Origin: Patiria pectinifera
Lineage: Eukaryota > Echinodermata > Asteroidea > Valvatida > Asterinidae
Assembly: GCA_029964075.1 (NCBI GenBank)
Contig: CM057148.1
Location: forward strand, 24,421,916-24,485,915
Direction: 5' to 3'
DNA: 64,000 bases
Shown here one piece after another: positions 2,842 to 61,505 of this stretch. The position numbers and the translations under genes are program-made. The first letter of the stretch is position 1, and each line of letters opens with the position of its first letter. The notes under the pieces are model-generated. The model did not search any database and was not told the origin of the DNA. It saw only the letters and a list, made by a program, of their open reading frames with translations.

Positions 2842-3362
2842 TTAAAGGGAAAATACAACATTTGCAAACATCAAAAAACGAAATGATCAAATTATCACGA
2901 AATGCCATATGGATTGTTAGGAATGACAGTCTAAAGCATCCTTTAAAATCGTGGCTCCTGGTGTGCTGACATTTTCAAGAAAAACTGCATTTTTCCAACG
3001 CTGGTCGGCTGACCAGCGTTGGGAAAAAAAACTGCCTTTTTTCAAAACTGTTCTCAATTTTTCATATTTAGTTTTCTGAATTTTCGTTGCAATTGATTAC
3101 ACACCTCTGCAGGGTACAAGCCTGCTAGACTGATTCTCTGACCTTACAATTCCCCAAAGTGTATTAAGTGCTCTGTTTCATCTTATTCGGGTCAGGGAAC
3201 CAGACTACAAGAACATGATAGGTTTTCTTGGTTATTCCAGCATCTACAAGCCCAAAACGTGAAACATGTCAGTTCAACAATATTTTCTATAGCATACTGA
3301 TCCTCCAAATCCATTTATTTCTGAAAATTGAAGCAAAAGCAAATGTTGTACATTCCCTTTAA
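2842..3362. mobile_element. TTAA-flanked MITE family A, copy 1
   Basis: Body 2846-3358 (513 bp) between TTAA duplications at 2842-2845 and 3359-3362. TIRs begin AGGGAAAATACAACATTTGC and end with its complement. Inside is a palindromic segment around 'ctggtcggctgaccagcg' and the phrase 'gggaaccagactacaag', both diagnostic of the family. The TTAA target duplication is typical of piggyBac-like integration; the superfamily is inferred. A related copy forms the kinase intron at 59544-60079. Confidence 0.85.
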
Positions 3363-4796: not shown

Positions 4797-5271
4797 TTAA
4801 AGGGAATGTACATCATTGGCTTTTGCATAAGAACAGATCAAATTTTTAGAAATCTTTAGAAACAGATCAAGTTTTGTGTTCGAAAATACTGGAAAAACAA
4901 AGAAAAACAAAAATTTCAGGTAGTCTGGTTCCCTGACTTCACTAAAGATAAAATGGATCATTTATAGATGCCGGATGCCATTTATAGATAATGGAACCAG
5001 TCTGTTCTGGCCTGCACCCGTTCATGAACATGTAACCAATAGCAAACAAAATTTGGACTGAAAAAGATTGGTAAATTTGGAGCAGTAGTTGTAAAATTGT
5101 TAGGTTTTTCCAACGGTGGTCGGCCGACCACCATTGGAAATTTGTACAAAATACCACTTTTCTTGAAAATGACTTCACACATGGTGCCATAATTTTACAG
5201 GATGCTTTAGACTGCCATTGACCAACATCCTAGTAAGGTATTTTGTAAAAAATGTTGTATATTCCCTTTAA
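4797..5271. mobile_element. TTAA-flanked MITE family A, copy 2
   Basis: Body 4801-5267 with TTAA on both sides. It starts AGGGAATGTACATCATTGGC and ends with the inverted AACAATATAAGGG-type terminus. The internal 'ggtcggccgacca' palindrome matches the other copies. It ends only 34 bp before the first recognised ACCS-like exon, so it forms the 3' part of the preceding intron up to the acceptor region. Confidence 0.85.
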
Positions 5272-23300: not shown

Positions 23301-26300
23301 TTGTGATCATGGACAGAACTTTAAAACGGTGGTTGTGCTTCAAATTCCGTAACTTGAAAAGTAAATGAGTGATTTGAATGATTCTTGTACTAAAAGAAAG
23401 CTTATGAATTGGGCTTTCATATCCTAGATATTAAAAGCGCTCCAGCAGAATTCACTCAAACAATGGTCCCGACATTTGGGTTTCTTTTTTTTTGACTTGC
23501 CGCTGTATTGAGGAAAAAAATGGGTATTTCATATGAATGGTTATTACCTTGTCTTCCACAGGAATTTTGAATTTTTCAAATTAGTGGCTGTGGTGAGGAG
23601 TGAAGCCATTTTCATTGAAGTTTTCATTGAAGCCTATAACATCTCATTTGCAATAGTTTTGATAATTGCTACATACTTTTAATATTTTCTTTAATTTGGA
23701 TTCAGATCATTCTGACTCACCCCGCAGTCCATCACTAGACTATTAAACTGCACTTAAACACCGGAGAAGAGAACACCTTTTAAAATGTCAAGTTTGTCAA
23801 ATTACAGTTAACCCCATAGAGCTAAACTACTAGAGCGCTAACTCGATTTATAAAGTAATGCCTGATCATGGGCGCATCCATGTTTGGGCACAAACCTATG
23901 GAAAACTCGAAATTTTGTACGGCTGTTTGCATATCTGCGTTTGTATTCCATACCAGTGCGTCATCGAAGCCGATACGCCCAAATCCAAAACGCACGATCA
24001 GCAAATGAGCGTTTCATTTTGCTCTACGCAAACAGTGCAACGTGTGCGCGTCCCTCCACTGCAGATACTTTGCCGTGACGTTTTTTGAACCGTCATGACG
24101 CTTAAGTTGTTTGCGTATCTTCTACTTGGGCGTTGCATTTAGAGTACACTTTTAAAATCAATCCATCTATTTTGATTGTGTTCTACGAACACTCGCATAA
24201 ATTAAAAATGTCTGTGCCCAGAGCGGCTTCAAAGCGTCTCCGCATGCAAGAATGAGGAGTTAGCGCTCTAGTACTTTAATACAGCTCTATGGTTAACCTT
24301 AACCCTGCTATTAAAATGCAACAGAAAGCAACAAAGGTAAAAAGTTGTTGCATACTGTTGCATTCAGCAGGCAACTCATGTTCCCGTGCTTTGTTGCATC
24401 TAGCGGGGTAACTGCTCATAGTGCCAAGATGGTGCTGTGCAACAGAGTCCACTGCTGCACTTGGTAACATTGAGAAGGGTAACTGCTTGGTGCCGAGGCT
24501 GAGTCACTGTGCAATGCAACAGAATCCACTGTTGCAGTTTGTTGCATGTAGCAGGGTTCTTATTTCAGTTGTGTTGAATAGTGTTGCATTCAGCGTGGTA
24601 CCTGGATAATATCCGATGGGGGTTAAATCGCACAAAACACATCAGTAAACTCGCGATAACTCAAAGTCAGATAACTTGAATTTCTGGTTATCGAGAATTC
24701 ATAAATACCGCAGACAGTTTACCCATTCCTATTGGTTGAGAGCCCATCACGTGGCCGGTTGATAAGACCAGCTGACTGGTCTTAAACACTTTTCCAGTGT
24801 CACATAAAATTTGGACTCTATGAATTCCGGTGCCTTTTATCGTTTTATTGGTTAAACGTTCACAATCCTCACTTAGCTAGCATGCGCACAACACTACCAG
24901 TGAGGCAGTATTCATACACCTTAATTCACAATATACCAGCACAGCAGCATTCTGCGCCACATTGCGCAGTGCGCCACATTGCGCAGTGCGCACGACGCGC
25001 GTGCCAATCTCCATATAAGGAGTTGTTTAAGACCAGTCACGAGATGGACATTCCATAGGGGGTGTTTAGAAAAACATGAAGTAAAAGTGTTGACAAAATC
25101 TTTGAAATTTATCATTTTGGACTTGTTTTGACTTGCGGACCGAAAATCTTTGATTTTTTTACCGAAAGGTATTTATGAGTTCGAATAAATATGTGATAGT
25201 AGGCTGGTATTAAACACTAAGTTTAAGACCGGTTGGAGTTCTGGATGCTGATAATTACCTGTGGCCCGGGTAATTATCAGCATCCAGACTCCACCTGGTC
25301 TTGCATGGATCTCGCACGCTGGCTAAATTAAACATGCCAAATGAGACCAGTCATGTGACCGCTGATGGTGCAGCAAAGTAAGGGATATTCTCTTATCTCC
25401 AATTGATGTTTTGTTTTCAGTTCATGCCGTCCCTCACCAAGGAGGATGAGATGGCTCTCTTCTACCGTTTCATCGATGACGGCGTCTACATCGCTCCCTC
25501 CCTGGCGTTTTTCGCAGATGAGCGTGGATGGTTTCGCATAATTTTCTCCAGGCCATTTAACGAGGTCAAAATTGGTAAGAATGAAATAAAGGACTTCTGA
25601 ATTCGCCGAGAATCAAGTTGATAGTGACGGGCATTGAGTTGAGAAATGGACTGTTAAAGCCTAGCTTACAACTTAAGCATTATTTGTAGAATGCCGTGGT
25701 CCAGTGGTTACGTTGTTTCACTTACGTATGTACGATGGTGCATGGGTTCGAACCCTGGCAGGAGCATGGTGTTCGTGCCCTTGGGCAAGACACTTCACTA
25801 CAATTGCCTCTCTCCACCCAGGAGTATAAATGGGTACCTGTGAGGGTAGAGGACCAATGCGCACTGATATCGGCTGCTGAATTTGTTTACATGTACGCTT
25901 TCCTATGGGAGCGAAGTCGGGACGTCAGACAAATTGGGGACCGTCTACTACGTAGGAAAGTGCACATGTAAACAAAGCGTGACGTCATTACGTCTTAGGG
26001 CTATTGAACTGTTCAAGAATCATCACTGGCAGAACAATCAAGGGTAGTAATTTGATCAAGAATGTTCTCATTGATTGCACAAAATGGCTTCACATCAAGT
26101 TGTTTCTGCTGTGTTTGTGTTCTTGGCAAAACACTGAAAGGGAATATACATGATTTGCTTTTGCTGTAATTTTCAGAAATGGATGGATTTGGGGGGTTGG
26201 CAATTTGTAACAAATATTGTAACACTGACTTTTTTGACGTTTTGGGTTCGAGATGCTATAAAAACCAAGAAAAACAATCACTTTCCCTGCAGTCTGGTTC

Positions 26301-28547
26301 CCTGACTCCATTTAAGATGAAACGGAGCAATTTATATACGTTGGGGAATTGTAAGGTCAGGGAACCAGTCTAGCTGGCTTGTACCCGTTCATAGGTGTGT
26401 AATCGATTGTAAACAAATGCGGACTAACTAAATATGGTCAACTTGGGCCAGTATTTGAAAAAAAAGTTTTGTTCCCTGGTCGGCCGACCGACGCTAGTCG
26501 GTTGACCAGCATTGGAAATTGATACGAAAATACCACCTTTTTTTTTAAAATGACAGTATACCAGGTGCCATGATTTTACCTGATGCCTGAGACTGTCATT
26601 CACTAACAGTCCAGCAAGGTATTTCAAAACAATTTGGTAGGTTTTATTTTTTGATGTTTGCAAATGTTGTATTTTCCCTTTAACTACAATTGCCTCTCTC
26701 CACTTGGGAGTATGAATGGATATCTGTTGGAGTTGACTCATGAGACTATATTGCGCTGATCTCAGCTGCAGAGAAGTGGTCTCGTGGCCTGATGAACAGA
26801 GGTTATCCTGTGAAGTGCTTGGAGACCTAGCTTCAGTGGAAAGAACTGTACAACAGACACACGTTATTAACCTGGTTGTTGGCAGGTGAAGAGTCGGGCA
26901 GTGCTATTGTATAGGATCACACTGGATCACACATAAAATCTGGCCCATTGTGTACACCAGTTGCATAGCGAAGTGAATAGCCGTTGTGAGTCGTTGAGTA
27001 GATTATTTGGTGTACTGTGGGACCTGCTTTACTAGGCTCGCTTTGTCTTGTCTCCGTAGCCATGGGGAGGCTTGCGAAGAGCTGCAACGCGCTTCTAGAA
27101 GAAAACAAGAAACTGTCCTCTGCAACAGCTGTAAGTGATGAGAGCAAAGGCGCAGGCCCTTCAGACTCCGCACAAGGTACGTGTTTGTATAGTTGGCCAG
27201 GTACATTTAAAGGTATAGTCCATCATTTGCTGATATCCGAAAAGTAACTGGCGTAATTACTGTTGAAAAACATACTTGGTTGAAAGATAGTAAGGGGACT
27301 AAACTCCCTGTGAAATTATTGTTTCTGGCAAGCTGTCAGACGCACCATAGGAAATTTAAATTAGTAGTTCGTTTTATTATTCGGCGAAGCGCAAGCAAGC
27401 ATTGGCACGACGCACATGCACGCGCGGTTGCTATAATTTATCGGATCAGTGCACAACATTGCATAGCTGCAATCGGCTTAGTAAGAATGTGTTTCGGACG
27501 CCGAATTCAGGCCCAAATCAAAACATGATACAGCAACTTTTGATTTGAAATTGAGATCCTAGAATGCTGTTTTTCTCGGAATTTACAGCTGAAGCTGAGC
27601 TGAAACTTCATCAGGTTAGTTGTTCAGTATCCTTCTTTAGATTTTGAGCACTTGTGTTGCTTCAAACGAACAAATGCACAAACTACAAATGATGGACTGT
27701 ATCTTTAAAGGTAAAGTCCATCATTTGTAATTTTGTGCATTTTGAATTGGGCCTGAATCCAGCATCCGAGACACGTTCTCACCAATTTCAGCTACGCGAT
27801 GTCGCGCACTGATCCGACGAATTAAAGCAACTGCGTTTGCGTCGTGTGACCGAATAACAAAACGAGCTACTAATTTGAATTTCCTATGGAGCTTCTTAAG
27901 AAGCACCGTTGGAAAGGCCTTCATTCGTTGATTTCTTCAAAATGACAGCTTGCCAGAAAGAATATTTTTACAGGGAGATTAGTCCCTTTACTATCTTTCA
28001 ACCGAGTATGTTTTTCAACAATAATTATGCCAGTTACCTTTTGGATAGCTGCAAATGATGGACTCTGGCTTTAACTACTGTTGACTGCTGTGATGCAGGA
28101 TAGGGTGTCTTTAACACCCAAGGCGAAGCCTCTGTCCTCTGTTCCCCCCCCCCCTTGTCCCCCAACCCACCCCTTAGAGTTCGTAGAGCAAAAATTAACT
28201 TTTCTATTGTTACATTGGTTGCCCGCTACAGGAAACAAAGTACTGTGCAAATTGATCCTCATTTATGCCATTCCAATTGATATGTCAACTGGCTTTTTTT
28301 TCTACATCATTAGCTGTTTCGATGTACACACCGAAACAGCTCTTGCTTTTGTTAAGATTTTTTTTTTGAATTTTTTTTGGTGTATTCTCTCCATCATTCA
28401 TTTGTTTAAGGCACGTCACTGGAAGGTCTGCTCTCCCAGCTGAAGACTGAGATCTCCTCCTCTGATTGGCTGGAGAAGAACACGGCGGAGAAATGGAAAA
28501 CAGACAATCCTGAACTCTACAAAGAGTACAAAGCCAACATGAAGTAG
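5306..28547 (+). CDS. ACCS: ACCS-like PLP-dependent aminotransferase-fold enzyme (12 exons, 5' end missing)
   Basis: Twelve exons (5306-5365, 10149-10286, 11193-11259, 12533-12630, 13085-13162, 13679-13779, 16957-17098, 19113-19254, 22705-22847, 25421-25574, 27060-27176, 28411-28547) total 1377 nt and join without a frame break to 458 residues and TAG. All have AG/GT borders. The order of motifs is that of fold-type I PLP enzymes of the ACC-synthase/ACCS group: LGTSENRL (res 6-13), SPYYGG (95-100), NPNNPLGD (158-165), NEVY (189-192), SKDLSMSGMRFG (227-238, Lys228 as Schiff-base lysine) and GWFR (360-363, substrate-carboxylate Arg). The tyrosine used by plant ACC synthases in their D-Y-H-G motif is Phe38 here, and the PLP-nitrogen-contacting Asp is Asn189, so true ACC synthase activity is doubtful. 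Vertebrate ACCS homologues are likewise not established ACC synthases. The N-terminal residues before Gly1 were not found. The C-terminus adds a ~80-residue lysine-rich tail. Confidence 0.9.
5433..6303. mobile_element. Nested MITE with ~55 bp TIRs and an internal fold-back
   Basis: Arms 5433-5482 and 6246-6303 are inverted repeats (shared 'ggggaatgttgttagctac'). A second nested inverted pair lies at ~5866-5965 and ~6128-6228 ('taccaaagactgtaaatcgt'), and a third pairs 5525-5575 around 'gtagtgcgtc'. This is a Russian-doll arrangement of hairpins. It seems to be inserted into the left end of the larger element. Confidence 0.7.
6313..6720. repeat. CTTATAAGAAT 11 bp tandem array
   Basis: Tandem copies of an 11 bp unit that is nearly self-complementary, so both orientations (CTTATAAGAAT and ATTCTTATAAG) occur in one array. 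It decays to AT-rich sequence after ~6650. A matching array is at 8828-9060. Confidence 0.85.
7096..7266. repeat. Dispersed ~170 bp repeat R3, copy 1
   Basis: Runs from 'gtttctgcattcag' to 'gattgcagg' with 'gaacaatagaggacaatagg' near its start and 'gtacaaaacatgtgggag' in the middle. Further copies are at 11329-11500 (same orientation) and 57727-57905 (opposite). Function and class are unknown. Confidence 0.7.
7335..8040 (-). pseudogene. LINE reverse-transcriptase fragment, degenerate
   Basis: On the minus strand the frame at 7332-7781 contains ACNKLHNIRQSS, then SILLYGAETWTMKKELQDCL, the classic tail of a LINE reverse transcriptase (YG-E-W-T followed by a leucine-rich segment). Upstream (7780-8040) the RT core continues in other frames with D-L-ALTAD-like and Y-RKW-like pieces. 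Frameshifts and stops show it is a relic. Confidence 0.75.
8828..9062. repeat. Second CTTATAAGAAT array
   Basis: Shorter and more diverged than the array at 6313-6720, with the most regular units at 8945-9055. It sits just inside the right terminal repeat of the composite element, in mirror position to the first array. Confidence 0.8.
9190..9392. mobile_element. ~195 bp fold-back MITE
   Basis: The left arm 'acaacacctgaataaatt' followed by 'tctgattgg' is mirrored at 9347-9390 ('ccaatcagatgacgag' then 'tttattcaggtgttgtgt'). No coding capacity. Confidence 0.7.
9428..9527. repeat. ~100 bp hairpin repeat
   Basis: The segment starting 'aataatttcatttggtga' pairs with 'tcacctcatgaaattatt', with an inner pair around 'ccattcca' and the loop 'cagcttcgcctcgtgg'. 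The same 'ggcttcgcctcg' loop occurs in the hairpins near 44.4 and 45.3-45.5 kb, so they are relatives. Confidence 0.6.
9588..10008. mobile_element. MITE with 23 bp TIRs
   Basis: Ends read ATATGAGACCTGTTCTGCCA and, inverted, ATATGTGACCTGTTCTGTCA. The second inner pair is 'gggcagagttatg' and 'ctctgcccagaag'. AT-rich interior with no coding sequence. It ends ~140 bp before exon 2. Confidence 0.7.
10149..10286 (+). CDS. ACCS: ACCS-like exon 2
   Basis: Acceptor 'ttgtttcag', donor 'gtgctt', 46 codons, phase 0-0. It covers the NDFQGIPELREAVAGFL segment, where family members have D-(Y/W)-x-G followed by an L-R-E-x-(V/I) helix. Phe38 replaces the tyrosine of plant ACC synthases. Confidence 0.9.
10358..10783. 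mobile_element. Pogo/Tigger-like non-autonomous element
   Basis: The right end, read inverted, starts CAGTGGAACGCCGCTATAAC and is followed by TA on the plus strand. The left end is CAGGACTTGGAACGTCGCTA. Ends of the form CAGT-GAAC-CGCTATAACG are typical of pogo/Tigger elements. The left TA is mutated to TG. Confidence 0.65.
10790..11095 (+). repeat. tRNA-derived SINE
   Basis: Contains a B-box-like 'gggttcgagtcc', the conserved body 'ctctccacccaggagtaaat', 'gggtacctgtgagggcag', and a tail with 'gcgccttgagtac' and 'ataaataagcattatt'. The same SINE occurs at 25691-25985 and, split by a MITE, around 26.1 and 26.7 kb. Confidence 0.75.
11193..11259 (+). CDS. ACCS: ACCS-like exon 3
   Basis: Acceptor 'atcggtag', donor 'gtatgt', 67 nt ending in phase 1. 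It encodes IVVMNGGGMCMEALSFAICD, the glycine-rich segment that binds the PLP phosphate side in this family (N-G-x-x-x-x-x in homologues). Confidence 0.9.
11268..12480. repeat. G-rich GGGTTGGGTCGGGATGG minisatellite
   Basis: About 1.2 kb in which the plus (mRNA-like) strand is almost only G and T: GGGTT pentamers mixed with longer units such as GGGTCGGGATGGTTTGGG and 'gctaggtcatgtaggttggg'. It lies in intron 3 and is interrupted by repeat R3 at 11329-11500. Closely spaced G-runs predict G-quadruplex formation on the coding strand. Confidence 0.9.
11329..11500. repeat. Dispersed repeat R3, copy 2
   Basis: Same landmarks as the copy at 7096. It is embedded in the G-rich minisatellite, which resumes directly after 'caggcaaatacacac'. 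Confidence 0.7.
12533..12630 (+). CDS. ACCS: ACCS-like exon 4
   Basis: Acceptor 'acatgccag', donor 'gtactc', 98 nt, phase 1 to 0. It encodes DAVMVASPYYGGIETD, including the SPYYGG motif whose first tyrosine stacks near PLP in family members, and continues to the VIRVHFYSK strand. Confidence 0.9.
12660..12990. repeat. ~102 bp tandem repeat from a SINE fragment
   Basis: Three to four units, each with 'cttcttgtgtccatgggc', a 'ccatccacaatcattaag' stretch and a B-box-like 'gggttcgaaccc'. The tRNA-like box suggests the unit derives from a SINE head that was then amplified in tandem. Confidence 0.75.
13085..13162 (+). CDS. ACCS: ACCS-like exon 5
   Basis: Acceptor 'tgccgtag', donor 'gtaggc', 26 codons, phase 0-0. 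It encodes LEPGQTEPFQITISKFESVY, matching the family's 'R/E-P-F-Q-(L/I)-T' strand and helix before the NPNNPLG core. Confidence 0.9.
13288..13612 (+). repeat. ~320 bp tRNA-derived SINE (second type), copy 1
   Basis: tRNA-like head ('tggcttgtgtgtaaagcgct' and B box 'ggttcgattccc'), then 'gagggtttttctccg', 'ctccggttttcc', 'tttcgatctctgg' and the end 'gtccttcgcaattcagc'. A close copy is at 30585-30893. Reading frames inside are accidental. Confidence 0.8.
13679..13779 (+). CDS. ACCS: ACCS-like exon 6
   Basis: Acceptor 'ttattttcag', donor 'gtgaga', 101 nt ending in phase 2. It encodes RAVYFMNPNNPLGDVY; the second Asn of NPNNPLG (Asn161) corresponds to the invariant asparagine that contacts the PLP O3 in fold-type I aminotransferases. 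Confidence 0.95.
13930..15658. mobile_element. TTAA MITE family B, copy 1, split by an hAT-like element
   Basis: Starts at TTAA (13930-13933) with AGCCAGAGTCCATCATTTGC and ends near 15654 with the inverted terminus and TTAA. The homology to other copies stops at ~14005 ('acttggttgaa') and resumes at ~15193 ('ggttgaaagatag'), bracketing an insertion of ~1.18 kb. Confidence 0.8.
14009..15192. mobile_element. hAT-like non-autonomous element nested in MITE B
   Basis: Ends CAGGCCTTGAATT and (inverted) CAGGGCTTGAATTG. The host text 'GTTGAA' (6-8 bp) is duplicated across it. Subterminal 'ggccaaggcc' and 'gcacgacggcca' motifs are repeated near both ends. The CAGG terminus with a short duplication fits the hAT superfamily. 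There is a palindrome 'ggccggccggcc' near 14890. No transposase was seen. Confidence 0.65.
15662..16166. repeat. Old TTAA-associated repeat
   Basis: Starts TTAA-AGGGATCATGCGATGAAA. It contains 'gatgaatcaccaacgaaaac' and 'gacatcacacttttgatcat', which recur inverted around 51230-51370. The right terminus is not clearly mirrored, so the boundaries are uncertain. Confidence 0.4.
16167..16682. mobile_element. TTAA MITE family B, copy 2 (intact)
   Basis: Body 16171-16678 (508 bp) flanked by perfect TTAA. The left terminus is AGATATAGTCCATCATTTGT, the right is its complement with AGCTATAGTCC. Internal landmarks: 'tgaaacttcatcaggttagt' type text, 'gcgcactgatccgacg' and the palindrome around 'gtgcgtcttaagacgcac'. 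Confidence 0.85.
16957..17098 (+). CDS. ACCS: ACCS-like exon 7
   Basis: Acceptor 'cacgtttcag', donor 'gttagg', 142 nt, phase 2 to 0. It encodes HSLHLIMNEVYMNTIF and ends VHFVWAVSK, whose last lysine (Lys228) is the expected Schiff-base residue. The position that is Asp in D-E-(I/V)-Y of relatives is AAT, Asn189. The exon's last ~30 nt are partially duplicated twice downstream. Confidence 0.95.
17072..17285. repeat. Tandem partial duplication of exon 7 end with CCCTAA repeats
   Basis: The exon end 'ttcactttgtctgggc' plus 'ttagcaagg' recurs at 17164-17190 ('atcactttgcctgggca' then 'attagcaaggat') and as a shorter copy at 17267 ('ttcactgtgtctgggcag'), periods ~91 and ~103 bp. Between them lie telomere-like 'accctaaccctaac' runs. 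In the second copy the donor GT is GA, so it cannot serve as a donor. Confidence 0.8.
17524..18042. mobile_element. PIF/Harbinger-like MITE, long TIRs, TTA duplication
   Basis: Body 17527-18039. The arms read GGGACCGTGACCATTCAGCC on the left and its complement on the right, continuing inward through 'atgaaaagggccccccgg' for ~45 bp. TTA flanks both ends, as for PIF/Harbinger elements. No transposase. Confidence 0.75.
18043..18570. other. No recognisable feature
   Basis: AT-rich intron sequence with short open frames only. Nothing resembles an exon of the flanking gene. Confidence 0.4.
18571..19088. mobile_element. TTAA MITE family B, copy 3
   Basis: Starts TTAA-AGCTATAGTCCATCATTT and ends with GGACTGTAGC-TTAA, ~510 bp, 24 bp before exon 8. 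It keeps the family landmarks 'actggcggaattattgttg' and 'cagctgaagcttagctg'. The right end has lost one A. Confidence 0.85.
19113..19254 (+). CDS. ACCS: ACCS-like exon 8
   Basis: Acceptor 'tatttgacag', donor 'gtaaat', 142 nt, phase 0 to 1. It encodes DLSMSGMRFGVLHTQNESII directly after the Schiff-base lysine; Arg236 is the conserved PLP-phosphate arginine of the S-K-x(6)-G-x-R motif. Confidence 0.95.
19293..22680. repeat. Higher-order satellite of TACTCATGACAAAG units
   Basis: Basic units of ~14-20 bp (ACTCGTACTCATGACAAAGT and variants) are organised into three long blocks, each opening with 'cattgttgcagtgctaatac' at ~19294, 20441 and 21530, i.e. periods of ~1147 and ~1089 bp. Block order of variants ('taggcctactcgtactca', 'ttcataaagtactcatac') is kept between blocks, so blocks were copied whole. 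It fills intron 8. Confidence 0.95.
22705..22847 (+). CDS. ACCS: ACCS-like exon 9
   Basis: Acceptor 'tacgttcag', donor 'gtaagt', 143 nt, phase 1 to 0. It encodes DWLNNVYFPTNHKRLREAHK and MGVPYLNRPSGLYVYANFKK, the usual small-domain start (helix, then the G-(L/F)-(Y/F) strand). Confidence 0.95.
23024..23485. mobile_element. Fold-back element with ~200 bp arms
   Basis: The left arm (from 'caccaaatgttgg') and right arm (ending 'ccgacatttgggt') are complementary over almost the full length, e.g. 'aaaacggtggttgtg' against 'cacaaccaccgtttt'. The loop is centred near 23250. A one-arm relative is at 1-262 and a short remnant near 48085-48170. Confidence 0.85.
23808..24296. mobile_element. piggyBac-type MITE (TTAA-CCC ends)
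   Basis: Body 23812-24292 between TTAA duplications. The left end CCCCATAGAGCT pairs with the right end AGCTCTATGG, and 'ctagagcgctaactc' is mirrored further in. TTAA plus C-rich termini match piggyBac-like elements. No transposase. Confidence 0.8.
24297..24620. repeat. TGTTGCA-rich repeat cluster
   Basis: Repeated 'gttgcattcagcagg', 'gttgcatctagcggggtaac' and 'gttgcatgtagcagggtt' phrases with inverted 'gcaacagaatccactg'. It looks like a decayed tandem array. No coding signal. Confidence 0.4.
24695..25320. mobile_element. TIR element plus hairpin, copy 1
   Basis: 'ttcataaataccgcagacag' at ~24698 is mirrored by 'ggtatttatgagttcgaat' near 25168. After it comes a hairpin at 25236-25300 around 'gctgataattacc' and 'ggtaattatcagc'. 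A related set in reverse order is at 31845-32280. Confidence 0.55.
25421..25574 (+). CDS. ACCS: ACCS-like exon 10
   Basis: Acceptor 'ttgttttcag', donor 'gtaaga', 154 nt, phase 0 to 1. It encodes EDEMALFYRFIDDGVYIAPS and ERGWFRIIFSRPF; Arg of GWFR (Arg363 by count 362-363) is the substrate-carboxylate arginine of the fold. Confidence 0.95.
25691..25985 (+). repeat. tRNA-derived SINE, copy 2
   Basis: Head with A/B-box-like 'gtggtccagtggttacg' and 'gggttcgaaccctgg', then 'cttgggcaagacacttcact', 'caattgcctctctccaccca' and 'gggtacctgtgagggtagag'. Same family as 10790-11095. Confidence 0.8.
26135..26683. mobile_element. TTAA MITE family A, copy 3, inserted in a SINE
   Basis: Body ~26139-26679 starting AGGGAATATACATGATTTGC, right TTAA at 26680-26683. 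The text just outside ('cttggcaaaacact' left, 'ctacaattgcctctctcc' right) is the same SINE body that is unbroken at 25780-25815, so the MITE landed in the SINE. The left TTAA has become TGAA. Confidence 0.8.
27060..27176 (+). CDS. ACCS: ACCS-like exon 11
   Basis: Acceptor 'tctccgtag', donor 'gtacgt', 117 nt, phase 1 to 1. It encodes MGRLAKSCNALLEENKKLSS and a Ser/Ala/Gly-rich linker ending PSDSAQ. The first helix corresponds to the last helix of the aminotransferase fold; the linker is low complexity. Confidence 0.85.
27207..27708. mobile_element. TTAA MITE family B, copy 4
   Basis: Body 27211-27704, AGGTATAGTCCATCATTTGC at the left and the mirrored terminus before TTAA (27705-27708). The left junction reads TTTAAAG-GTATAG, which contains a potential splice donor like that used in the kinase intron. 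Confidence 0.85.
27705..28074. mobile_element. TTAA MITE family B, copy 5, sharing a TTAA with copy 4
   Basis: Body 27709-28070 in the opposite orientation, shortened internally (362 bp). It starts AGGTAAAGTCCATCATTTGT right after the TTAA that ends copy 4 and stops before TTAA at 28071-28074. One element apparently inserted into the target duplication of the other. Confidence 0.85.
28411..28547 (+). CDS. ACCS: ACCS-like exon 12 (terminal)
   Basis: Acceptor 'ttgtttaag', 44 residues plus TAG. It encodes a hydrophilic tail with EISSSDWLEKNTAEKWKTDN and ends KEYKANMK. This tail has no counterpart that I know in vertebrate ACCS. No canonical AATAAA was seen in the next few hundred bases, so the 3' UTR end is unknown. 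Confidence 0.85.
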
Positions 28548-30893: not shown

Positions 30894-31010
30894 ACTCCCA
30901 AATTATTATTATTATATTATTATTATCTATCAGATTTGGAAAACTTTCTAATCTTTGGATTAGAAGAAATTCACAGAAAATAATGACTATTTAGTTTCAA
31001 TATAGCTAAA

Positions 31011-33607: not shown

Positions 33608-34131
33608 TGAAGCAGAATGTACAACATTTGCTTTTGCTGCAATTTTCAGAAATAAATGGATTAGGAGGATAAGTATGTTATAGCAAATATTGTTAAACTG
33701 ACTTGTTTCACGTTTTGGGGTTGTAGATGCTGAAAAAACCAAGAAAACCAATCATGTTCTTGTAGTCTGGTTCCCTGACTCCACTTAAGATGAAACGGAG
33801 CAATTTATAGACTTGGGGGAATTGTAAGTTCAGAGAATCAGTCTAGCTGGCTCATACCCCTTCACAGGTGTGTAATCAACTGCAAAGAAAATGCGGAATA
33901 ACTAAGTATAAAAAATTAGGAGCAGTTTTTTTTAAAAAGCCAGGTTTCTCCAACGCTGGTCGGCCGACCAGCGTTGGAAAAATACAGTTTTTCTTGAAAA
34001 TGTCAGCACACCAGGAGCCACAATTTTACAGGATGCTTCAGACTGTCATTCCTTAACAATTCAGTAAGACATTTCGTGATAATTTGATCATTTCATTTTT
34101 GATGTTTGCAAATGTTGTATCTTCCCTTTAA
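33608..34131. mobile_element. TTAA MITE family A, copy 4
   Basis: The body begins near 'gaatgtacaacatttgcttt' directly next to family C copy 2 and ends at 34127 before TTAA. Carries 'gctggtcggccgaccagc' and 'gtctggttccctgactcc'. The first bases of the left TIR are mutated. Confidence 0.8.
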
Positions 34132-49713: not shown

Positions 49714-49736
49714 TATCTACCGTGACAAAAAGCAGT

Positions 49737-51014: not shown

Positions 51015-51602
51015 TTGATCCTTGCTCTGTGATTTTAAACCTGGTTAGCATCCTCACAAAATCTGCCACAAGTGTCACCTAATTCCACATTCGCAATTCT
51101 ATATAATTTAAATGTAATTCTTGAAAATGCACCTTTGTGTCCCATTTAACCTTATATTCAATTTTCATTTTGCCGTTTTCAAGGGTATTTTAATGTTTTG
51201 TTTTGTTTTTATGCTTATGTACATTTCCATATTCATGAGCAAAAGCGTGATGTCATATCAGGCAGACACCTCAATGCATGTAATTGGTTTGTGAAGAAAA
51301 AGTTGACAGAATTTTGGATATTTCGTTGTTGAAAATTTTCTTTTCTTTGGTGATTCATTGTTGTGTTAATACATGGCAGTATTAATTTCTTGAACCCTTT
51401 AATGTAACTCAAATCATCATTTTCATTTCATCTGTACGTGCGTGACTTACAAATGGGGCACTTTTGCTCTCTAATTATTTGCCATGTTTGCTGCATCCAC
51501 ATTATTTTGTCGTAGGGACAAAAAAAACACAAACGATCACTATATAAATAAACGTCAACAGGGTTCCTTTATGCAGTTGTAATATTCATAACTTCGCTTG
51601 TA
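51015..51602. other. 3' flank of the intronless gene
   Basis: AT-rich, with AATAAA at 51547. The segment 51230-51370 is an inverted relative of the repeat around 15930-16110. Confidence 0.4.
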
Positions 51603-52128
51603 CCCCCCCCCCCACCGCCCAGCAAACAGGACGCTGGGATACTCTGATGAGCTTCACAGATTCTTGTGAAGGAAATGGCCTATGACCTATGTATAAAGCA
51701 TCTGGCTGCAGCTGTTCAAGACCACTCATTAGACAATGTGCGCAAATACTATCCGAAAACTTCTAACAGAATTGCGCGCATTCCCTACCGGACGGTGATT
51801 TCTGTTTCATTGCAGACCATGTGGACACAATTTTGAGCGTGGCACAATGCAATCCGACCGTTCGTGATTCGAAACGGAGCCTGAGCGGGTGACGGGAATT
51901 GTAAATTTACAACACAGATAAGGTTTACAGAATTTCCTACATTATTACGCTTTTCAACATCTCCAAACTGGAATAAAAAAGTAATGAATCAGTCTTAACG
52001 GCCGTTTCAAACCTGGCAGAGTCATGACCTTGATGACGCACAGGTCATTGGTCACGCAAAATCCAACCAATCAGAGCGTGAAATCATCAGAGTATCCCAG
52101 CGTCCTGTTTGCAGGGGGGGGGACGAGC
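51603..52128. mobile_element. ~520 bp TIR element
   Basis: The left 'cagcaaacaggacgctggga' with 'tactctgatga' is mirrored at 52085-52115. C- and G-runs mark the outer ends. The 'ggcaaacagggc' text near 35397 may be a remnant of the same family. Confidence 0.7.
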
Positions 52129-54020
52129 GAATATTCATAACATGGTGATGTTTAGTTCTTAATTTGATAGAAAATGTAAATGTCTTTTTTTGTAAAGAAA
52201 TGTCTTCCTTAATAAACTTAACAGGACACATTGTAACTTAACTATGACCGCTGACGGCATCACTCATGAAAATACACCATTTCACAGGGTTGAGTCTCAA
52301 GATAGTGGAAGTATGCCGTTGCGGTTGTTTCTGGGCCACCTTGCCTGTACATCTGTATAATATATTTAAGGATGCAATTCTATTTTAAACTTATACTGTT
52401 TATTGACATAACTGTATTCATCAGTACCATAATACATCATATGACACGAAGCTGTCGATATTGTATTGAGTAAGCCTAGACCCTATGTGATGTAGCGCAA
52501 CATACACGTGAATCTGCGCTGCGACAACATCTGAAAGGAACTGTTGGTGTTCATTCTTTTTAAATTGTTTGATCAATGACATTGTAAACATAACGCTGAT
52601 AAAATCCCTGCCTTGTTGATCACAACTGTAGTGAATAACGCACAGTAGCATTGTTATTGGACGAATACTTCCTGCTGAACTTGCAAACGAAGTCCATTAT
52701 GTTCACATCATGAGGGAATTAAATCAATATTGAAAGTGAAATTTAGGGGAGCTATATGCCTTATACTATAGTAGGCCACTATGTACATACCCGGTACATA
52801 TGTACACCAATATGTACGTACATATGTGGGTGACACAGCCATGTGTAAGGGTGCCTGCGGGGGCGTGCTAAATTGCTAAGTACATGTGCATGTGCGTGTC
52901 TATTGCGTAACTTTACCACTCTCTCACTTCTGCCATGGCACGCGCGCACTGATCTCTATTATCAGTGGGCACCCGCCGCATGCACCATGCCTCATTAATT
53001 TAACAATCACAGACTGACAAATGCGGTTAAGTGCCTATAATTTGGGTCAGTCCTGCGGCTCTGTGGTGTAACTGACACCTACTTTATCTAGGATTAGACA
53101 TGTAAACAAACAAAGGCGCTAATAAATAACCCAAAAACTGGACTTCGTGTGTTTTTATAGCAACCACACGCCCGAATCTGGTACATGATAATTCACAGCA
53201 TAATGTCAGCAAAAGTATGAAGGAATTCCTGAGTGGAAAAAGCAACAATGAAGACAAAGACTTTCGAAGTTGCCTTTCAGTCCTTAGTTTATTATTAATT
53301 TTCATTTAAAAGTGTCGTTTATTTTTGTCAGCATCCATTCTTTTATCATTGCTCTATATTCCCTCTGAAGTAGGCCTCTGTACAAACCTTTAAAATTATT
53401 ACAAATAAAAAAACATATAACGTTATCTATCTATTGGGTATATATGTCGTCTTTAAACTATACATGTTGATATACTTTCGATTTCTTGTGATTGTTCTCC
53501 GCATAAATGGTGTACTTATTGGCGTGTTTATAATTCCAATGCAAAATGTCAAATGTTTGCCCACTGATGTCAGTGATGAATTTATTTCACCAAACGTTCT
53601 TACCTCAATGCTGGGCAAATTGGAATGATCTTCGCTGGTAATTGCAATCTGAATGAGCGTCACTTGAACATTTGTTTGCCGTATATTAACCATCGCGTTG
53701 TCAAAAAAGTAAATCGAATGTTCTCTTCGATTAATTGAAAGATGATCTTATAATGCATTGAAATTCGCGCTTAAATGAACAACTCTCGCTATTTGGGTGA
53801 TAATTTGGGGAACCTACTTATGAGGAGAAATTACTGTGCTCAGTTGTCGGGACCGGGGTATGGTTGACGATTCACATTATATTCATCGATTCTCCCGCCC
53901 CGCACGGATCATATTTTATAATGCTTGTGTAGTAAAGTGACCGCCTGTAACATATTCATAACGTATACAAGGGCAATTCCATGCCATAGTGAAGTTTTGT
54001 CACGTTCCGTTATCAGCCTA
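52129..54020. other. No gene recognised
   Basis: AT-rich. A short 'gtacatatgtac' palindromic patch lies at 52780-52830. Open frames up to ~88 codons show no domain or codon-like composition. Confidence 0.35.
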
Positions 54021-54705
54021 ATTCAGTGGCGTAGCTAGTGGGGGAGGGGGCATCGGAATATCATGGGGGCACATATCGCAAACGTCCTATTGCACTTTTT
54101 CCAAGTTGGGCCCCATTATGCTTTGGTATATCCATTGACATAATAAAATTGTTAACAGTAAGCCTTTGACTAACTTAAGTAACAAACCTACTAAAATATT
54201 TGGTATAGCGGGAAGGAAATGGGGCATTTGGCCAAAAAAAAAAAAGTTTCCGGTTTCTGGTATGCGCGCGCGTCGCCGTAGCCATGCGCGTCGGCAAAAT
54301 TAAAAAGTTTTTGATTCAATGTAGGCCTAAGATAACGTCTCAAAACCGCCAAACTCACTGGTTTGACTGGAATCCTGCTGCTGCACAATTTTAACGTGTT
54401 TTTGATGGGGTTACGATAGAGTGAAAGCTTTATGCGGCCACTCTGGGTTCCCATACATTTTGCACTAAAATTTGTCGGCAATCATTTGCAGTCATAAGAA
54501 CGGGGACAAAAGTGATAAAAAAAGAAAGAAAAAAAAAAGCCGCGTCGCCGCACTACTTTTGGGGCAGGCTCCATGCCAGAAACCGGAGACTTTTTTTGGC
54601 CTAATCAGTATTTGGGTGGAGGCGGGGGCACGAAAAAGTGTGTGTGTGGGGAGGTCAGCGGCGTATCTGGGGGATCGTGCCCCCAGATACGCCGCTGACC
54701 TCATT
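54021..54705. mobile_element. MITE family C, copy 3, inside a GTGGCGTAGC-type element
   Basis: Family C body at 54229-54602. Around it are 'cagtggcgtagctag' (54023) and, at 54651-54703, a near-perfect 50 bp hairpin 'gaggtcagcggcgtatct' against its complement with a short loop. Confidence 0.7.
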
Positions 54706-56120
54706 GCTATCCTAATTCATAGGGGGAAATGGAACTTCAACTAAAAGGTAGTATCAGTAACATGATATGACCTCCTTTTATGAAGAATAATATACGAAAA
54801 ATAATGCAGTCGGTAACCAAGTAATAAAAACTCACTTTGGCGTGAAATTGTCGAGAAGTTTTGCATTGAATGCATGCGCAGTTTTGTCTTGGGCTTTTTG
54901 TTCCTGGACTCTGCGTATTGACGGCCAATGTACTGAGTTAATGTTATTAACTAACCGACTTGACATCTCAAGTTACTCTCAAACAAAGATGCTTTTTGTA
55001 TCATAAATACATGTATAATGTACAGTCCAATATCTTTTAAACACAGAAAACGAGCAAAATTTATTTCTTTTGTTCATCATCAATACATGTACATGTATAA
55101 TGTACAGTCAAATAGGCTTTTTAAACACAGAAAACGAGCAAAATTTAATGTGAAATTCAAAGTGAACAGTGTTTAATGGACCAGTATTCCCGTGTAGGCT
55201 ATCTATAGGCAAACAAATATGAATTATTTTCCAGTGTTGCTAGTCAATTATAATCAAGTCCCTTATCAAACAAACTTAAACAAATTTAAAAATCAGCATT
55301 TCCTCAGTAAGTACATTTTTATCTGCATCAGAAAAAAATGGGCTTTAAATTGACTTCAGCATCAATCTCGAGATTAGAATAAGGCTTCTCTTAAAAAATC
55401 CCCTACTTCTAAAACAATATCCTCACTTCGAGTCAAAATACAATTGTCATCTTTAACAATACGACTAATCGATTTGTTAACAAAACCATGCTCCATTCAG
55501 TGAGTCTTAGACCTAATTAAAACACCTTCCATTTTATTCTGACACATTAATAAGATCAACCTGTTTACCATTGAGAGCTTCGACAGGTTCAAAATCTCCT
55601 TCACATTTTGTTATGCAAAAAAGAAATTTGGCACTCCAGATTACGCTCGGATTTATCAGCGTCTTGCTCTAAACGACTCTAACAGCTTTATCAAAGAATC
55701 AGCATGTAAATTAGTAAAATAATGTGTACAAAAGTATAATTAAAGCCATTTTGACAATTAATGATGCATTTTACTATCAACCGAAAATTAACGTATATAT
55801 CTACAAATGCTTCTTTAAAGACAACTTACTGAAGCCAAACAATTCTAATGGCAATGCTGGGGGCAAATAAGCTGCCAACATTATTAATTAGGGAAGAGAA
55901 ATGATGTGCAATCGTTCTTCCTGGGTACCTGCTCATACAATGTAAATTAGTGGCAACCATTATTGGAAATAAGTATGATATTTCTATCAAAAGTATCATT
56001 TTTTTTCTCAGGCTGCTCAAACAGTGCAATTATATCCCGCGATCATCCAATTCACAGTTTCTGTCCTGAATTACAAGTCAATTTTTCCTCTCTTGTGTCA
56101 AACAGGAACTAAATTAACAG
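54706..56120. other. No gene recognised
   Basis: AT-rich. A 60-70 bp direct repeat ('aaacacagaaaacgagcaaa') occurs at ~55038 and ~55122. Nothing else seen. Confidence 0.35.
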
Positions 56121-57465
56121 AACCCGCCTCCATCCAAGGAGGTAGGGGGGCGAGTCCGGAACGCGCGTCCCCCTAACGGCGGCATGTACTGCGCATGCTT
56201 CACATTACAACCACCGCATGCTAGTCTTTACAGTTAAGCCTAACTAACGCGCCTCCATCTAATAGGGGCGAGTCTGGTACATGTACACGCATCCATCTAA
56301 CGGGGGCATGTACAACGGACGCTTCCACATTACAGCCACCACAGGCACTTTACTGTAGTAGTGAACGCGCCTCCATCTAATGGGGGCGAGTCTGGTACTC
56401 GCATCCATCTAACGGGGGCATGTACAACGCACGCTTCCACATTACAGCCACCACATGCACTTTACTGTAGTAGTGAACGCGCCTCCATCTAATGGGGGCG
56501 AGTCTGGTACTCGCATCCATCTAACGGGGGCATGTACAACGCAAGCTTCCACATTACAGCCACCACAGGCACTTTACTGTAGTAGTGAACACGCCTCCAT
56601 CTGATGGGGGCGAGTCTGGTACTCGCATCCATCTAACGGGGGCATGTACAACGCACGCTTCCACATTACAGCCACCACAGGCACTTTACTGTAGTAGTGA
56701 ACGCGCCTCCATCTAATGGGGGCGAGTCTGGTACTCGCATCCATCTAACGGGGGCATGTACAACACACGCTTCCACATTACAGCCACCACAGGCACTTTA
56801 CTGTAGTAGCAACGCGCCTCCGGCATCTGATGGGGGCGAGTCTGGTACTCGCATCCATCTAACGGGGGCATGTACAACGCACGCTTCCACATTACAGCCA
56901 CCACAGGCACTTTACTGTAGTAGCAACGCGCCTCCATCTAATGGGGCGAGTCTGGTACTCGCATCCATCTAACGGGGGCATGTACAACACACGCTTCCAC
57001 ATTACAGCCACCACAGGCACTTTACTGTAGTAGCAACGCGCCTCCATCTGATGGGGGCGAGTCTGGTATTCGCATCCATCTAACGGGGGCATGTTCAATC
57101 CACGCTTCCACATTACAGCCAACATTTTGCTACAGTCAAGTGCCGGTGGCTGTAATGTGGAAGCGTGTGTTGTACATGCCCCCGTCAGATGGATGCGAGC
57201 ACCAGACTCGCCCCCATCAGATGGAGGCGCGTTGTTACTACAGTAAAGTGCCTGTGGTGGCTGTAATGTGGAAGCGTGGATTGAACATGCCCCCGTTAGA
57301 TGGATGCGAGTACCAGACTCGCCCCCATCAGATGGAGGCGCGTTGCTACTACAGTAAAGTGCCTGTGGTGGCTGTAATGTGGAAGCGTGCGTTGTACATG
57401 CCCTCGTCAGATGGATGGGGGTATCGGACTCGCCCCCATTAGATGGAGAGGCGCGGGAATGAACG
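56120..57465. repeat. ~113 bp tandem array switching to inverted copies
   Basis: About eight units from 56240 to 57125 in one orientation, each with 'cgcctccatctaatgggggc', 'tggtactcgcatccatct' and 'acattacagccaccaca'. From ~57135 to 57450 come about three units in the opposite orientation ('gtggctgtaatgtggaagcg'). The unit itself is partly self-complementary (ATCTAA-GGGGGC). Open frames over it are repeat translations. Confidence 0.95.
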
Positions 57466-57726
57466 TACCATGCCTCTATCTTATAGGGGTGAGTCCGGTA
57501 CTCGCCTCCATGTTTTCGTTTAGTTAAGAAAAAAAGTTATTTTACTCACACAGTGAAAACTCTTTTAAACCATTTTTTTGTTATGATTTCCTTGAGTGGT
57601 TCTCTACATTTGGCGACACATAAACTTTACCCCAAAATGCCTCTAAACACGTTTTTCAGAGAGAGGACAACGTATTTGAAAACTGTCCATGAATGGTTAT
57701 TTGGACATCTTGCGAGCGGTCACACA

Positions 57727-57906
57727 GTGTGTATTTGCCTGCAATAACGTGGACCCCCTATTTCCCCCCTTTTGTTTGTATACTAACTTTTTAGGAAGAC
57801 CTCCCATATGTTTTGTACACAAATCCAAATTGGCGACCTCTCTGGATTTATGGGGACCCTATTGTACTTTACTGTTCAACATACCCTATAGTGAATGCAG
57901 AAACAA
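57727..57906. repeat. Dispersed repeat R3, copy 3 (inverted)
   Basis: Reads 'gtgtgtatttgcctgcaat' to 'gaatgcagaaac', the complement of copies at 7096 and 11329. Confidence 0.7.
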
Positions 57907-58510
57907 ACTCACAAGAACTCACACATGTTTACGTTACATACCTAGTGTGGACATTCCCTTGCTTTCGTGTAGTAAAGAAAATCCTCTAAAAAAAACCGCA
58001 TTTTACTCTCACTGTGAAAACAATTTCAACCCAATGTTTTTTTCTATGATTCCCTTTCATGTTTCTCTTCATTTTGCCACAATTAAACTTAACCCAAAAA
58101 ATTCTCTAAAGCTGGGGAAACACTGTTCTATCTGGTTTATGGGGACCTCTTTTGTTCGGAAGTCCACACAGTGAATGTAATGCCTACCCACCCGGCACAC
58201 CCAGAACTCCCGTTTTAAACGTATACGTAAGATCGAGGATTTGCGACAAACTTTGAATGATCAAACTGTTATCAAAGTTTTAAACATTATGATTATCTAG
58301 CCGACTACATGTAGCCTACAAGCTGTTTATTTTGCATTGCTGTAATTGTGAAGAATTATCAAAGATTTGCATGGAATTTTGAAAGCTATATATAGACTTT
58401 ATGACATCACATGTTGGCTCAAGTGTGATAAATGTATATTTGGCCAAAAACAAGTTTAAAAATGGGCAAAAAGTACCCTACAAAAATTGCGGAGAAAACC
58501 CAATATGCAG
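57907..58510. other. No recognisable feature
   Basis: AT-rich, no protein-like frame. The 3' flank of the minus-strand exon at 58514. Confidence 0.35.
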
Positions 58511-58513
58511 TGC

Positions 58514-58657
58514 TCAGTTTGGGGGGTCATCTTGATTCTCTCGTGCTTGATCTCCCCACTGCCGTTTCTGGAATCGGTTTAGCCCTCTCCACATGTCGTG
58601 TATAATTCTGTTGCGACGGACGAGGTCCCTGGCGTGTATCCCATGTTCTCGCATAAC
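58514..58657 (-). CDS. Putative orphan terminal exon
   Basis: A strong acceptor ('gttttctcctcag') is followed by a phase-0 frame of 47 residues and TGA: VMREHGIHARDLVRRNRIIH, then DMWRGLNRFQKRQWGD and an acidic end QDDPPN. The composition (many Arg, His, Trp) looks like real protein, unlike the other two frames. I do not recognise it. Its upstream exon was not found; it could be an alternative last exon of the kinase gene or a remnant of another gene. Confidence 0.45.
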   Translation of the reverse strand, partial: VMREHGIHARDLVRRNRIIHDMWRGLNRFQKRQWGDQARENQDDPPN

Positions 58658-59219
58658 CTGAGGAGAAAACATAAGCCCAAGCTAATATATAAATATGTTG
58701 AACAAAACAGTTCTGAATAGGTTTGGAAAAAAAGAGCTGCAGTTGGAGCAACGTTTCTTTTGTGTCCTTATATTTGAACGTATTAAATGTAGTAATTGAG
58801 TAACTAGCAAGGGGACGGTCAAAATTTTTATGATCCCCCCTTCACTCAGTCGATAAACTCTTTGTAGTTCCTGGAACGATCTATTGGTGAAGACACGAGA
58901 GATAATTTTTTTAAATTGTCATCAGTGCTGTAGGTTTTATCTTTTGAATGCAATATTTCAAATTGAAGGCAAAAGTAAAATCGGAGGCTATTACGCACTA
59001 TATTTTCAATTATCATTAGCAATGACTTTCAGAAACCACGTTTTGTCTTGATTTCTTTATGAAAGCCAGCGAATCAAAGTAAGTGTTTGTTTGATAATAT
59101 GAGACCCACATCATCCATTTTCTTACTTGTTGATAACTGTCAATTTTCCTCAATGAAATAAAATTTTGTTTCTAATTAATTAACTATGAGTATTATATAT
59201 TTCGACTCAGTTGAGACCT

Positions 59220-61024
59220 TCATTCAGCTTTCAGGGCCCTTAGTCGCTCCAGGATGTATGCCAAACTTGCACGCTTTGTCGGGTTGATCTGATAGGTAAC
59301 ATGGCAGATAGTTTGTAGATCGGACATGGATGCTTGCCGGCACACACTGGTGATTATGAACCCAAACGAGTACACGTCCGTATCGGGTGCTGTGACACCC
59401 TTACTTTCAAAGAGTTCAGGCGCGATCCACCTGTACTTTTTAGCCCATATTTCATGTTGTTGGGGGAGTAGCCGGTACTTGGTGACTGGACCTCCGATCC
59501 TCCGTGCTTTTCCAAAGTCCACGATAACTGGTGTGTAGTCTTCCTTTAAAGGTAATATACAACATTTGCAAACATCGAAAAACAAAATGATCGAATTATT
59601 ATGAAGTAACTTGCTTGACTGTAAGTGTGTTATAGTTTCAAGCTTCCTGTGAAATCACAGCGCCTGCTCTCATTTTCAAGTAAAATGGATTTTTATAATC
59701 AAATTTTAGCGTTGGTCGGCCGATCATCATTTGAGAAGACCTGACTAGGCCTATGTGTTGAAATACTGCCCCAAATTAAAAAACAAAAATCGTCAGTTCA
59801 TATTCTGTTTGCAATCGGTTACAAATTCGTGAACAGGTGCAAGCCAGCTTGACTGGTTTCCGATTTGAAAATTCCCTGACATTTATAAGTTGCTTTTTTT
59901 TAATCGAAAGTAGGATAAGGGAACTAGACTGGTGCAAAAAAAACTTCATTTTACCCTCGGTTTTCCAGCATATACAAATACAAACTGTTAACAGCCCAGT
60001 GTAACAATATTCGCTATAAAATTCCCCCAAATCTGTCAAATTTCTGAAAATTACAGCAAGTTCAAATGTTGTATATTACCTTTAAAACCACATTACTGTC
60101 GTGAAGATCGCCGTGGACGAATCCCGAGCGATGGATTGCTGCCAACGCATCACCTATTTGCTCGAGTACCGAAACCCATGGTACATTAAGTTTCTGGCGT
60201 AGGGCCTGGTACACAGTTAATGCCTTGTCTTCAGTGATTCCATAAAACTGAGTAATCAAAGAAAACGGCTTCGAGTCTAAACAGATTCCAAATAGCATTG
60301 GCAGGCTAGGATGAGCCTCAAGCGCGATGATGACCTCGGCTTCCGTCTGAACACTCTGTTTGAGTTTGTCATCAGAGAGATTTTCGAAGTTGTTGAAACA
60401 CTTAACCACTGCGGGCAAACCTCTGAATGTTGCCAACTCACAGGTGCCGAAAGATCCTTTTGCCAACTGTCCTTTTAATTCAACCATATTTTTTCGCAAC
60501 ATCATCGACGGTGGAAAAGTTGATGTAGTCGTTCCTCTGACAACTCTGTGATGAGCAGCCTTTACACCCTTTTTCAACAAATTGGCCTCCGATTCAAGAG
60601 TTTTAATGCGGTTTCCCATTTGTTGTTCCTTTTTCCGCATCACTTCGAGTTGCTCTTGATGATCCTTTTCAAGTTGTTCCTTTTCGTGTCTGATGTTGGT
60701 CACCTCAGGCGGTGTGTCCAACTGGCGGATAATCTCCGGGAGGTTTGGTAAGAGAACCTCTTCGCTGGCATTGTGTGGGAATGATTCAAACACAGCTTCC
60801 TCCAAACCATAGTAATAATATACCGGCTTCGGGCAAGTTTTGGAACGTCCTGGTCGGTTGCGTGAGAATGATTCTCCGAATGCCCAACGGAGAAGGCTAC
60901 CTGCTCGCCTACTAGAAACACCGGGAAATTCTCTGGATATCACATCGTGGGCCACATCACATGGTATTTTGCTATGCTTATTCAGCTTAAATAACTTTCG
61001 AACGCAATCAACGGGAAGCGCCAT
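59220..61024 (-). CDS. RFX-like winged-helix plus coiled-coil plus protein kinase (two exons)
   Basis: Exon 1 61024-60080 (315 codons) and exon 2 59543-59220 (107 codons and TGA) join in phase 0 to 422 residues. Residues ~20-74 (DVISREFPGVSSRRAGSLL then KPVYYYYGLE) resemble the end of an RFX DNA-binding domain (F-P-x-x-x-x-R-R-x-G ... Y-x-Y-Y-G). Residues ~110-155 form a charged coiled coil. The kinase domain runs from ~183: glycine loop LAKGSFG (first Gly is Ala187-188 region), AVVK (Lys208), helix-C Glu near 228-230, FVHGDLHDSN (catalytic Asp306, Asn311), VDFGKA (Asp324) and IAPELF. All catalytic residues are present, so activity is expected; HGDLHDSN instead of HRDLKxxN is unusual. The only intron (59544-60079) is a MITE. 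A DNA-binding role is inference. Confidence 0.85.
59546..60085 (-). mobile_element. MITE family A, copy 5: forms the kinase intron (introner)
   Basis: Body 59550-60081 (532 bp) between TTAA duplications (59546-59549, 60082-60085). Both TIRs read AGGTAATATACAACATTTG. The internal 'ggtcggccgatca' palindrome and 'actagactgg' text tie it to copies 1-4. On the minus strand the donor is TTAAAG/GTAATA, inside the TIR, and the acceptor is TTAAAG/GAAGAC, where AG is host sequence after the second TTAA. Removal of 59544-60079 gives NVVLK-EDYTPV, identical to the sequence without the insertion. Confidence 0.85.
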
Positions 61025-61505
61025 AATGTTGCAAAAGAAAAAAGTGAAAACATCAAGACATAGCAGATGTCACCAAAAACAAAATAAAAATCAAATACAG
61101 GGACGAAAGTTTGCATGTGCTGTCTACATTAAATCAAAAAAAAATATTCATGACAAAAAATGTTGAGAGGAAAAACGACGCTGAAATGCACTAGTCGGAG
61201 GCAACTCAGTGACTGGCTAGACAACGACACAACATGCAACTTAATTCACGTGAATAAGCTATGGTCCAACCTGAAAACTGCGTTTAAAGACCAAATTTTT
61301 CATCCAGTGTCCCTGAGTGTCCTGACACTCATCACTCCCAGAACAGGTGCTGCACATCATCCAAGGTTTTTTTTGCCATAATATAGTCCTTTCACATCCG
61401 AGCACCCATCAACATACCAAGATGAAGATTTGACCTTGTGACTTCGGGGATTCTCCCTCACCATGCATGCCCTCACTGACCATTACGCCAGATCACAGGT
61501 AGACC
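61025..61505. promoter_or_regulatory. 5' flank of the kinase gene
   Basis: The likely promoter and 5' UTR of the minus-strand kinase must lie here, because the ATG at 61024 is not preceded by a convincing acceptor. No TATA box or other element was identified. Confidence 0.3.

Follow-up and report, generated by a model that had tools for sequence, protein, structure and literature searches.

A TTAA-flanked MITE as the probable sole intron of a kinase gene

The introners of the algae Micromonas and Aureococcus, attributed to Huff et al. 2016, are reportedly short, non-autonomous DNA transposons that are removed exactly, with one splice site coming from the element and the other from the target. 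Their numbers in algal genomes are said to range from hundreds to thousands, whereas the element described here provides one case, probably in an animal. The sequence TTAA is targeted by DNA transposons such as piggyBac and Sola3, and the same four bases are duplicated at the borders of the present element. The TIRs of piggyBac start with CCC, whereas those of the MITE family examined here open with AGGT or AGGG instead, next to a TTAA target site duplication (TSD). According to the excerpted text of Gozashti et al. 2022 (PMC9860276), some introners carry a donor and co-opt an acceptor and others use sites in the neighbouring exon; the same excerpts place the introners found among 835 animal and land-plant genomes in two groups only, both of them animals.

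The kinase gene considered here lies at C20:24481135-24482939, on the minus strand of the window, the whole stretch of 64,000 nucleotides that was analysed, and it is a single exon apart from its interruption by a MITE. Exon 1 (60080..61024, minus strand) begins with an ATG at 61024, comprises 315 codons and includes the catalytic loop HGDLHDSN, and exon 2 (59220..59543, minus strand) extends from the DFG segment to the stop codon (107 codons plus stop). This model is based on the open frame and on the Pfam kinase domain of the joined product. Joining the exons yields an intact kinase of 422 residues in which PF07714 spans the junction (E=1.4e-21), and the junction is free of gaps in an alignment with IRAK1 (6bfn). 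Retention of the MITE in the mRNA would stop the protein after VIYNI, at 320 residues. Elsewhere, the window contains Fibrinogen_C/PAN and BRCT genes, which together with the genome size suggest an animal host, as well as a region of strong GC skew with G-rich tandem repeats (10001-14000), visible as low-complexity reading frames. A search of Rfam at gathering scores returned two tRNAs only. The TIR has no match in IMG/VR, where no relative of the kinase was confirmed either, and phage records gave chance-level matches only (best E 0.6).

Structurally, the MITE is 532 nt long with perfect TIRs. On the donor side, the TIR AGGTAATATACAACATTTG (60063..60081, minus strand) adjoins a TTAA at 60082..60085. 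On the acceptor side, a second, identical TIR (59550..59568, plus strand) adjoins the other TTAA at 59546..59549 and reads on the gene strand as ...GTATATTACCT upstream of the acceptor. Including TTAA, the inverted arms are complementary at 24 of 24 positions (59545-59568 and 60063-60086). The element is short and multi-copy and carries no transposase-sized frame, the longest stop-to-stop frame fully within it being 99 residues, as is typical of MITEs with TIRs and a TTAA TSD. A longer duplication, TTAAAG, was ruled out, because the two bases past the right-hand TTAA in four other copies in the window are TG, AA, CT and AA. The predicted intron (59544..60079, minus strand; 536 nt, GT-AG, phase 0) consists of the MITE, one TTAA and a host AG. 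At the level of sequence, its borders are those of the element and its removal restores the frame, which is what a transposon-derived intron should exhibit.

The donor, AAAG/GTAATA, is located two bases within the TIR, with the cut in AG/GTAATA falling between 60080 and 60079. The acceptor, TTTAAAG/GA (TTTAAAG/GAAG when read further), ends in an AG (59544..59545, minus strand) that is supplied by the host just beyond the TTAA. The TIR opens with an AG that takes the place of the host AG lost with the intron, and the predicted spliced mRNA is thus identical to the inferred empty-site sequence, with V-V-L-K-E-D-Y encoded in both. These features had been proposed in a first-pass annotation, and all are borne out: the TTAA duplications are exact to the base, the two splice sites can be read in the sequence as described, spliced and uninserted codons are the same, and retention leads to the stop after VIYNI. 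Upstream of the acceptor is a U-rich stretch, CATTTTGTTTTTC (59577..59589, minus strand), from which no AG occurs until the acceptor itself. It is accompanied by a branch-point-like TTCAT (59600..59604, minus strand; a consensus match only), whose A at 59602 is 59 nt from the acceptor.

Splice sites were compared by using approximate, vertebrate-like matrices, such that the ranks alone are usable. In the region 59000-61100, the donor ranks 6th of 115 GTs and the acceptor, which is mediocre with an A at -3, ranks 8th of 120 AGs. On score alone, ignoring frame, the same approximate matrices place the proposed pair 44th of 5552 donor/acceptor pairs. The reading frame is preserved for both the catalytic loop and the DFG segment by only 12 of these 5552 pairs, among which the proposed pair has the best score. 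A competing cryptic acceptor inside the MITE, TTTCACAG/GAA (59646..59663, minus strand; first exon base 59646), outscores the proposed acceptor; it is out of frame and would cause a frameshift, and its CACAG core is also present in the family consensus. Pairing between the TIRs is predicted to cover the whole donor (probability 1.0) and to reach the acceptor AG, which is mostly open in the same prediction (0.27 and 0.06). Such a stem over the donor could hinder U1, or it could help by bringing the splice sites together.

A non-autonomous, TTAA-targeting MITE has entered the coding exon of the kinase gene, where a TTAA precedes AGG; the insertion, its TSDs and TIRs and the intact frames on either side can be read in the sequence. 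The spliceosome would then take the GT of the TIR as donor, with U1 pairing to AAG/GUAA, and the last ~60 nt of the MITE would supply the branch point and the U-rich stretch. The acceptor would be the first AG downstream of these elements, namely the host AG after the duplicated TTAA. With the TIR-opening AG standing in for the host AG, the mRNA would be unchanged, and for this reason the insertion would have been near-neutral and could then have been carried through an apparent segmental duplication that left copies on C20 and C22. We assign a probability of roughly 0.74 to the reading that the kinase gene carries a genuine transposon-derived intron.

The MITE belongs to a larger family. A pattern search of the window with the TIR, allowing up to three mismatches, located eight TIR-like sites, two of which are the ends of the kinase MITE, against 0.01 expected. 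Related MITEs with AGGG-type TIRs are present at 2842..3362, 4797..5271 and 26135..26683, and another at 33616..34131 has an AGGG-type TIR at one end and damage at the other. When the same genome (613.5 Mb, 1020 contigs) was searched, 40 of 4860 MITE candidates were scored and all 40 matched. Among the 30 best copies fetched, AGGTA opens 36 of 60 TIR ends (32 of 56 without the kinase gene and its duplicate), and most flanks carry a TTAA TSD, some of them decayed. The exact 23-nt ends TTAAAGGTAATATACAACATTTG occur 305 times in the genome, compared to 0 for the reversed control. In a FastTree analysis of 62 copies, including four from the window, the kinase MITE appears to group with the AGGT copies.

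The TIRs of this AGGT subfamily start with AGGTAATATAC at either end. The donor GT is a subfamily trait that is found on both TIRs, and it is therefore available whichever strand the element occupies. A private mutation to GT was considered in view of the AGGG at the readable ends of the four other copies in the window, and is ruled out by AGGT being the subfamily state genome-wide. The window also contains a second TTAA-flanked family with a related TIR (TTAAAGGTATAGTCCATCATTTG and variants) at 27207-27706, 27705-28074, 15653, 16502-16683 and 18570-18751. Some ends of this second family are likewise AG/GTA, and two of them adjoin at 27686-27727 with one TTAA in common. Dense matches to GTATATTACCTTTAA were observed at C1:0-3.1 Mb, many of them a few kb apart, which is possibly an array containing the TIR end.

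Other insertions were examined for signs of the same habit. Exact matches number 598 for the 15 bases that comprise TIR end and TTAA, part of which make up the array at the beginning of C1 and are perhaps not MITE copies, and 85 for the 17 bases that include a following AG, part of which take this AG from an abutting second element. Beyond the kinase gene there are 83 AG-followed ends, of which 45 loci were read (both element ends recognised in 26) and 38 were left out. Together with copies chosen by similarity, these loci yielded 61 end pairs that represent 60 non-overlapping elements at 52 of 75 loci, with none at 23 loci. A long frame on both sides is present only in the two copies (C20 and C22) of the kinase insertion, where it spans 409 residues within the flanks used. 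No comparable frame was found at the 58 other recognised elements, a count that covers all but 38 of the 85 AG-followed ends. Next among the 60 elements comes a joined frame of 185 residues, of which 13 lie on one side, against a median of 41. This 185-residue frame is from the L020 copy, which seems to reside in an ordinary intron, shortly before an exon. None of the eight next-best joined frames, some of which were cut at 120 residues, reached the Pfam cut-off.

A kinase search of the same genome produced 24 matches, and 19 kinase genes or fragments, excluding the kinase gene and its duplicate, were used for comparison. These are paralogues and not orthologues. At codon 315/316, the alignments of 14 of the 19 run through the site, with no insertion longer than 10 residues, and these 14 lack an intron there; the other five gave no row at this position. 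The nearest relative (L035/L037, C19:4650163-4652210) has a canonical GT-AG intron ~20 nt upstream of the corresponding position, with other borders and a different phase than the kinase MITE. That intron neither matches the TIR nor resembles the MITE significantly (best E 0.09). The first-pass annotation had pointed to orthologues as the place to look for a site without the intron or for an unrelated intron at the same position; among paralogues, the former is found in 14, and the C19 intron is unrelated and does not occupy the same position.

A second copy of the kinase gene with the same MITE insertion is found on C22 (3.5 kb, 99.3% identical). It differs from the C20 copy by one amino acid, a Lys in place of the Glu of the APE motif, and all 422 codons are open and the MITE is kept in both. 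Positions 49677-51011 of the window are also present on C22 at 100% (rounded), whereas for positions 30532-31532 the 40 best-scored matches included nothing on C22 but a repeat. The latter segment contains a repeat of ~350 bp in high copy number, with 3918 candidates in the same genome, 40 of them scored, and repeat matches that are 94-97% identical. On a larger scale, C22:17234901-17251241 is near-identical to window positions 49677-61024, with ~5 kb extra on C22 between two matched pieces. The arrangement looks like a segmental duplication, with an assembly effect as an alternative. Between the two copies, there are 2 differences in 1270 positions of coding sequence and 5 in 1650 positions of the flanks (p=0.71), and thus constraint on the coding sequence is not demonstrated by this comparison. 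The intron differs at 8 of 533 positions versus the same 5 of 1650 in the flanks (p=0.005). However, seven of the eight intron changes are clustered in 43 bp and could stem from a single event, and for this reason the difference is not used as evidence.

The age of the insertion was assessed relative to a consensus of 36 AGGT-clade copies. The interior of the kinase MITE is 21% diverged from this consensus, compared to a clade mean of 8.5%. Its ends differ at 0 of 46 positions, where the clade mean is 7.1% and 8.3 differences would be expected (P about 1e-4, assuming independent sites). Two further copies also have 0 of 46 differences at their ends, with ordinary interiors (8-9%). Selection for splicing could explain frozen ends and a drifting interior. 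A recent arrival of the MITE out of a divergent lineage outside the sample accounts for the frozen ends equally well, because all 46 bases are frozen and this is more than splicing requires.

Several features of the locus would also suit a MITE that simply broke the gene, leaving it unspliced or cryptically spliced, either as a young pseudogene or as the source of a truncated protein of ~320 residues without the DFG segment. The cryptic acceptor at 59646 is stronger and the proposed acceptor is weak, a TIR stem is predicted over the donor, the Glu-to-Lys change within the APE motif of the C22 copy hints at relaxed constraint, and the divergence of coding sequence versus flanks reveals no demonstrated constraint. 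This outcome is nonetheless unlikely, given that all 422 codons remain open in both duplicates with a single amino-acid difference, despite a MITE interior that has diverged to such an extent. Moreover, random insertion would rarely create an exact splice product, as an AG follows 69 of the 840 TTAA sites in the window (both strands) and 1 of the 7 in the kinase coding sequence. It is far less plausible that the MITE entered or replaced an older intron. The C19 relative does have an intron ~20 nt upstream, but its borders and phase differ and it has no TIR match, and the kinase coding sequence is continuous through the position of the C19 intron and up to the TSD on either side, with no remnant of an older intron.

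A broader proposal is that the AGGT subfamily constitutes an animal introner family, with the kinase intron as one of many. Two findings are in keeping with this proposal, namely that both TIRs of the subfamily carry the donor and that 85 of the 598 exact TIR-end matches are followed by AG. We nevertheless consider it improbable because only the two copies of the kinase insertion have a long two-sided frame among the 60 elements, the eight next-best joined frames fall below the Pfam cut-off, and part of the AGs come from a second, abutting element. Introns at many loci are not observed: there is one insertion event, with two duplicates, among 60 elements. One intron is seen, and an introner family is not supported. 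The first-pass annotation had described the MITE as an introner, and this description can be kept in part. Insertion into an exon and a probable intron are consistent with the anatomy, the intron-less relatives and the subfamily TIR, whereas a family responsible for many introns does not emerge.

Returning to the single transposon-derived intron as the preferred reading, an extension can be tentatively suggested in which copies of the AGGT subfamily are latent makers of introns in an animal genome, irrespective of their orientation. The kinase insertion would be one survivor, with its ends under splicing selection and its interior drifting. We regard this extension as rather doubtful. If true, a single TIR base, AGGT instead of AGGG, equipped both ends with a donor, and any copy in a coding TTAA followed by AG would be seamlessly removable on either strand.

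Open-licence PMC papers were searched for TTAA introners, for TTAA inverted-repeat transposons in intron gain and for amphioxus TTAA MITEs, and none were found; for intron gain by a MITE via a splice site and TSD, the same literature returned a grass LTR element only. A clean DNA-transposon intron in a probable animal, with its donor already present in the TIR of its subfamily, would document intron birth by insertion among organisms in which such events are rarely caught. The donor-carrying introner family in the excerpts of PMC9860276 is alike in its 4-bp duplication, its element-borne donor and an acceptor recruited at the insertion site. However, these excerpts report no TIRs for that family and describe many introns, whereas the kinase MITE has perfect TIRs and one intron insertion. 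The introners of Symbiodinium microadriaticum, as excerpted from the same source (PMC9860276), are also MITE-like, with TIRs, a 4-bp TSD and one splice site each from element and target. There the element provides the 3ˊ site and the TSD the 5ˊ site, whereas these roles are reversed in the kinase MITE and the AG is just outside the TSD. The introner elements of the dinoflagellate Amoebophrya, in the excerpted account (PMC7789003), share direct repeats at their borders and inverted repeats that are able to pair the intron ends. They comprise many introns, a large part with non-canonical sites (PMC7789003), in contrast to the one GT-AG case presented here. The first-pass annotation had considered a TTAA-family introner that depends on a host AG not to be a standard described case. 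The mode in which the donor comes from the element and the acceptor from the host is in fact present in the excerpts of PMC9860276, and thus the mechanism is already known in kind; the new details are the TTAA family, the donor in both TIRs and the probable animal host.
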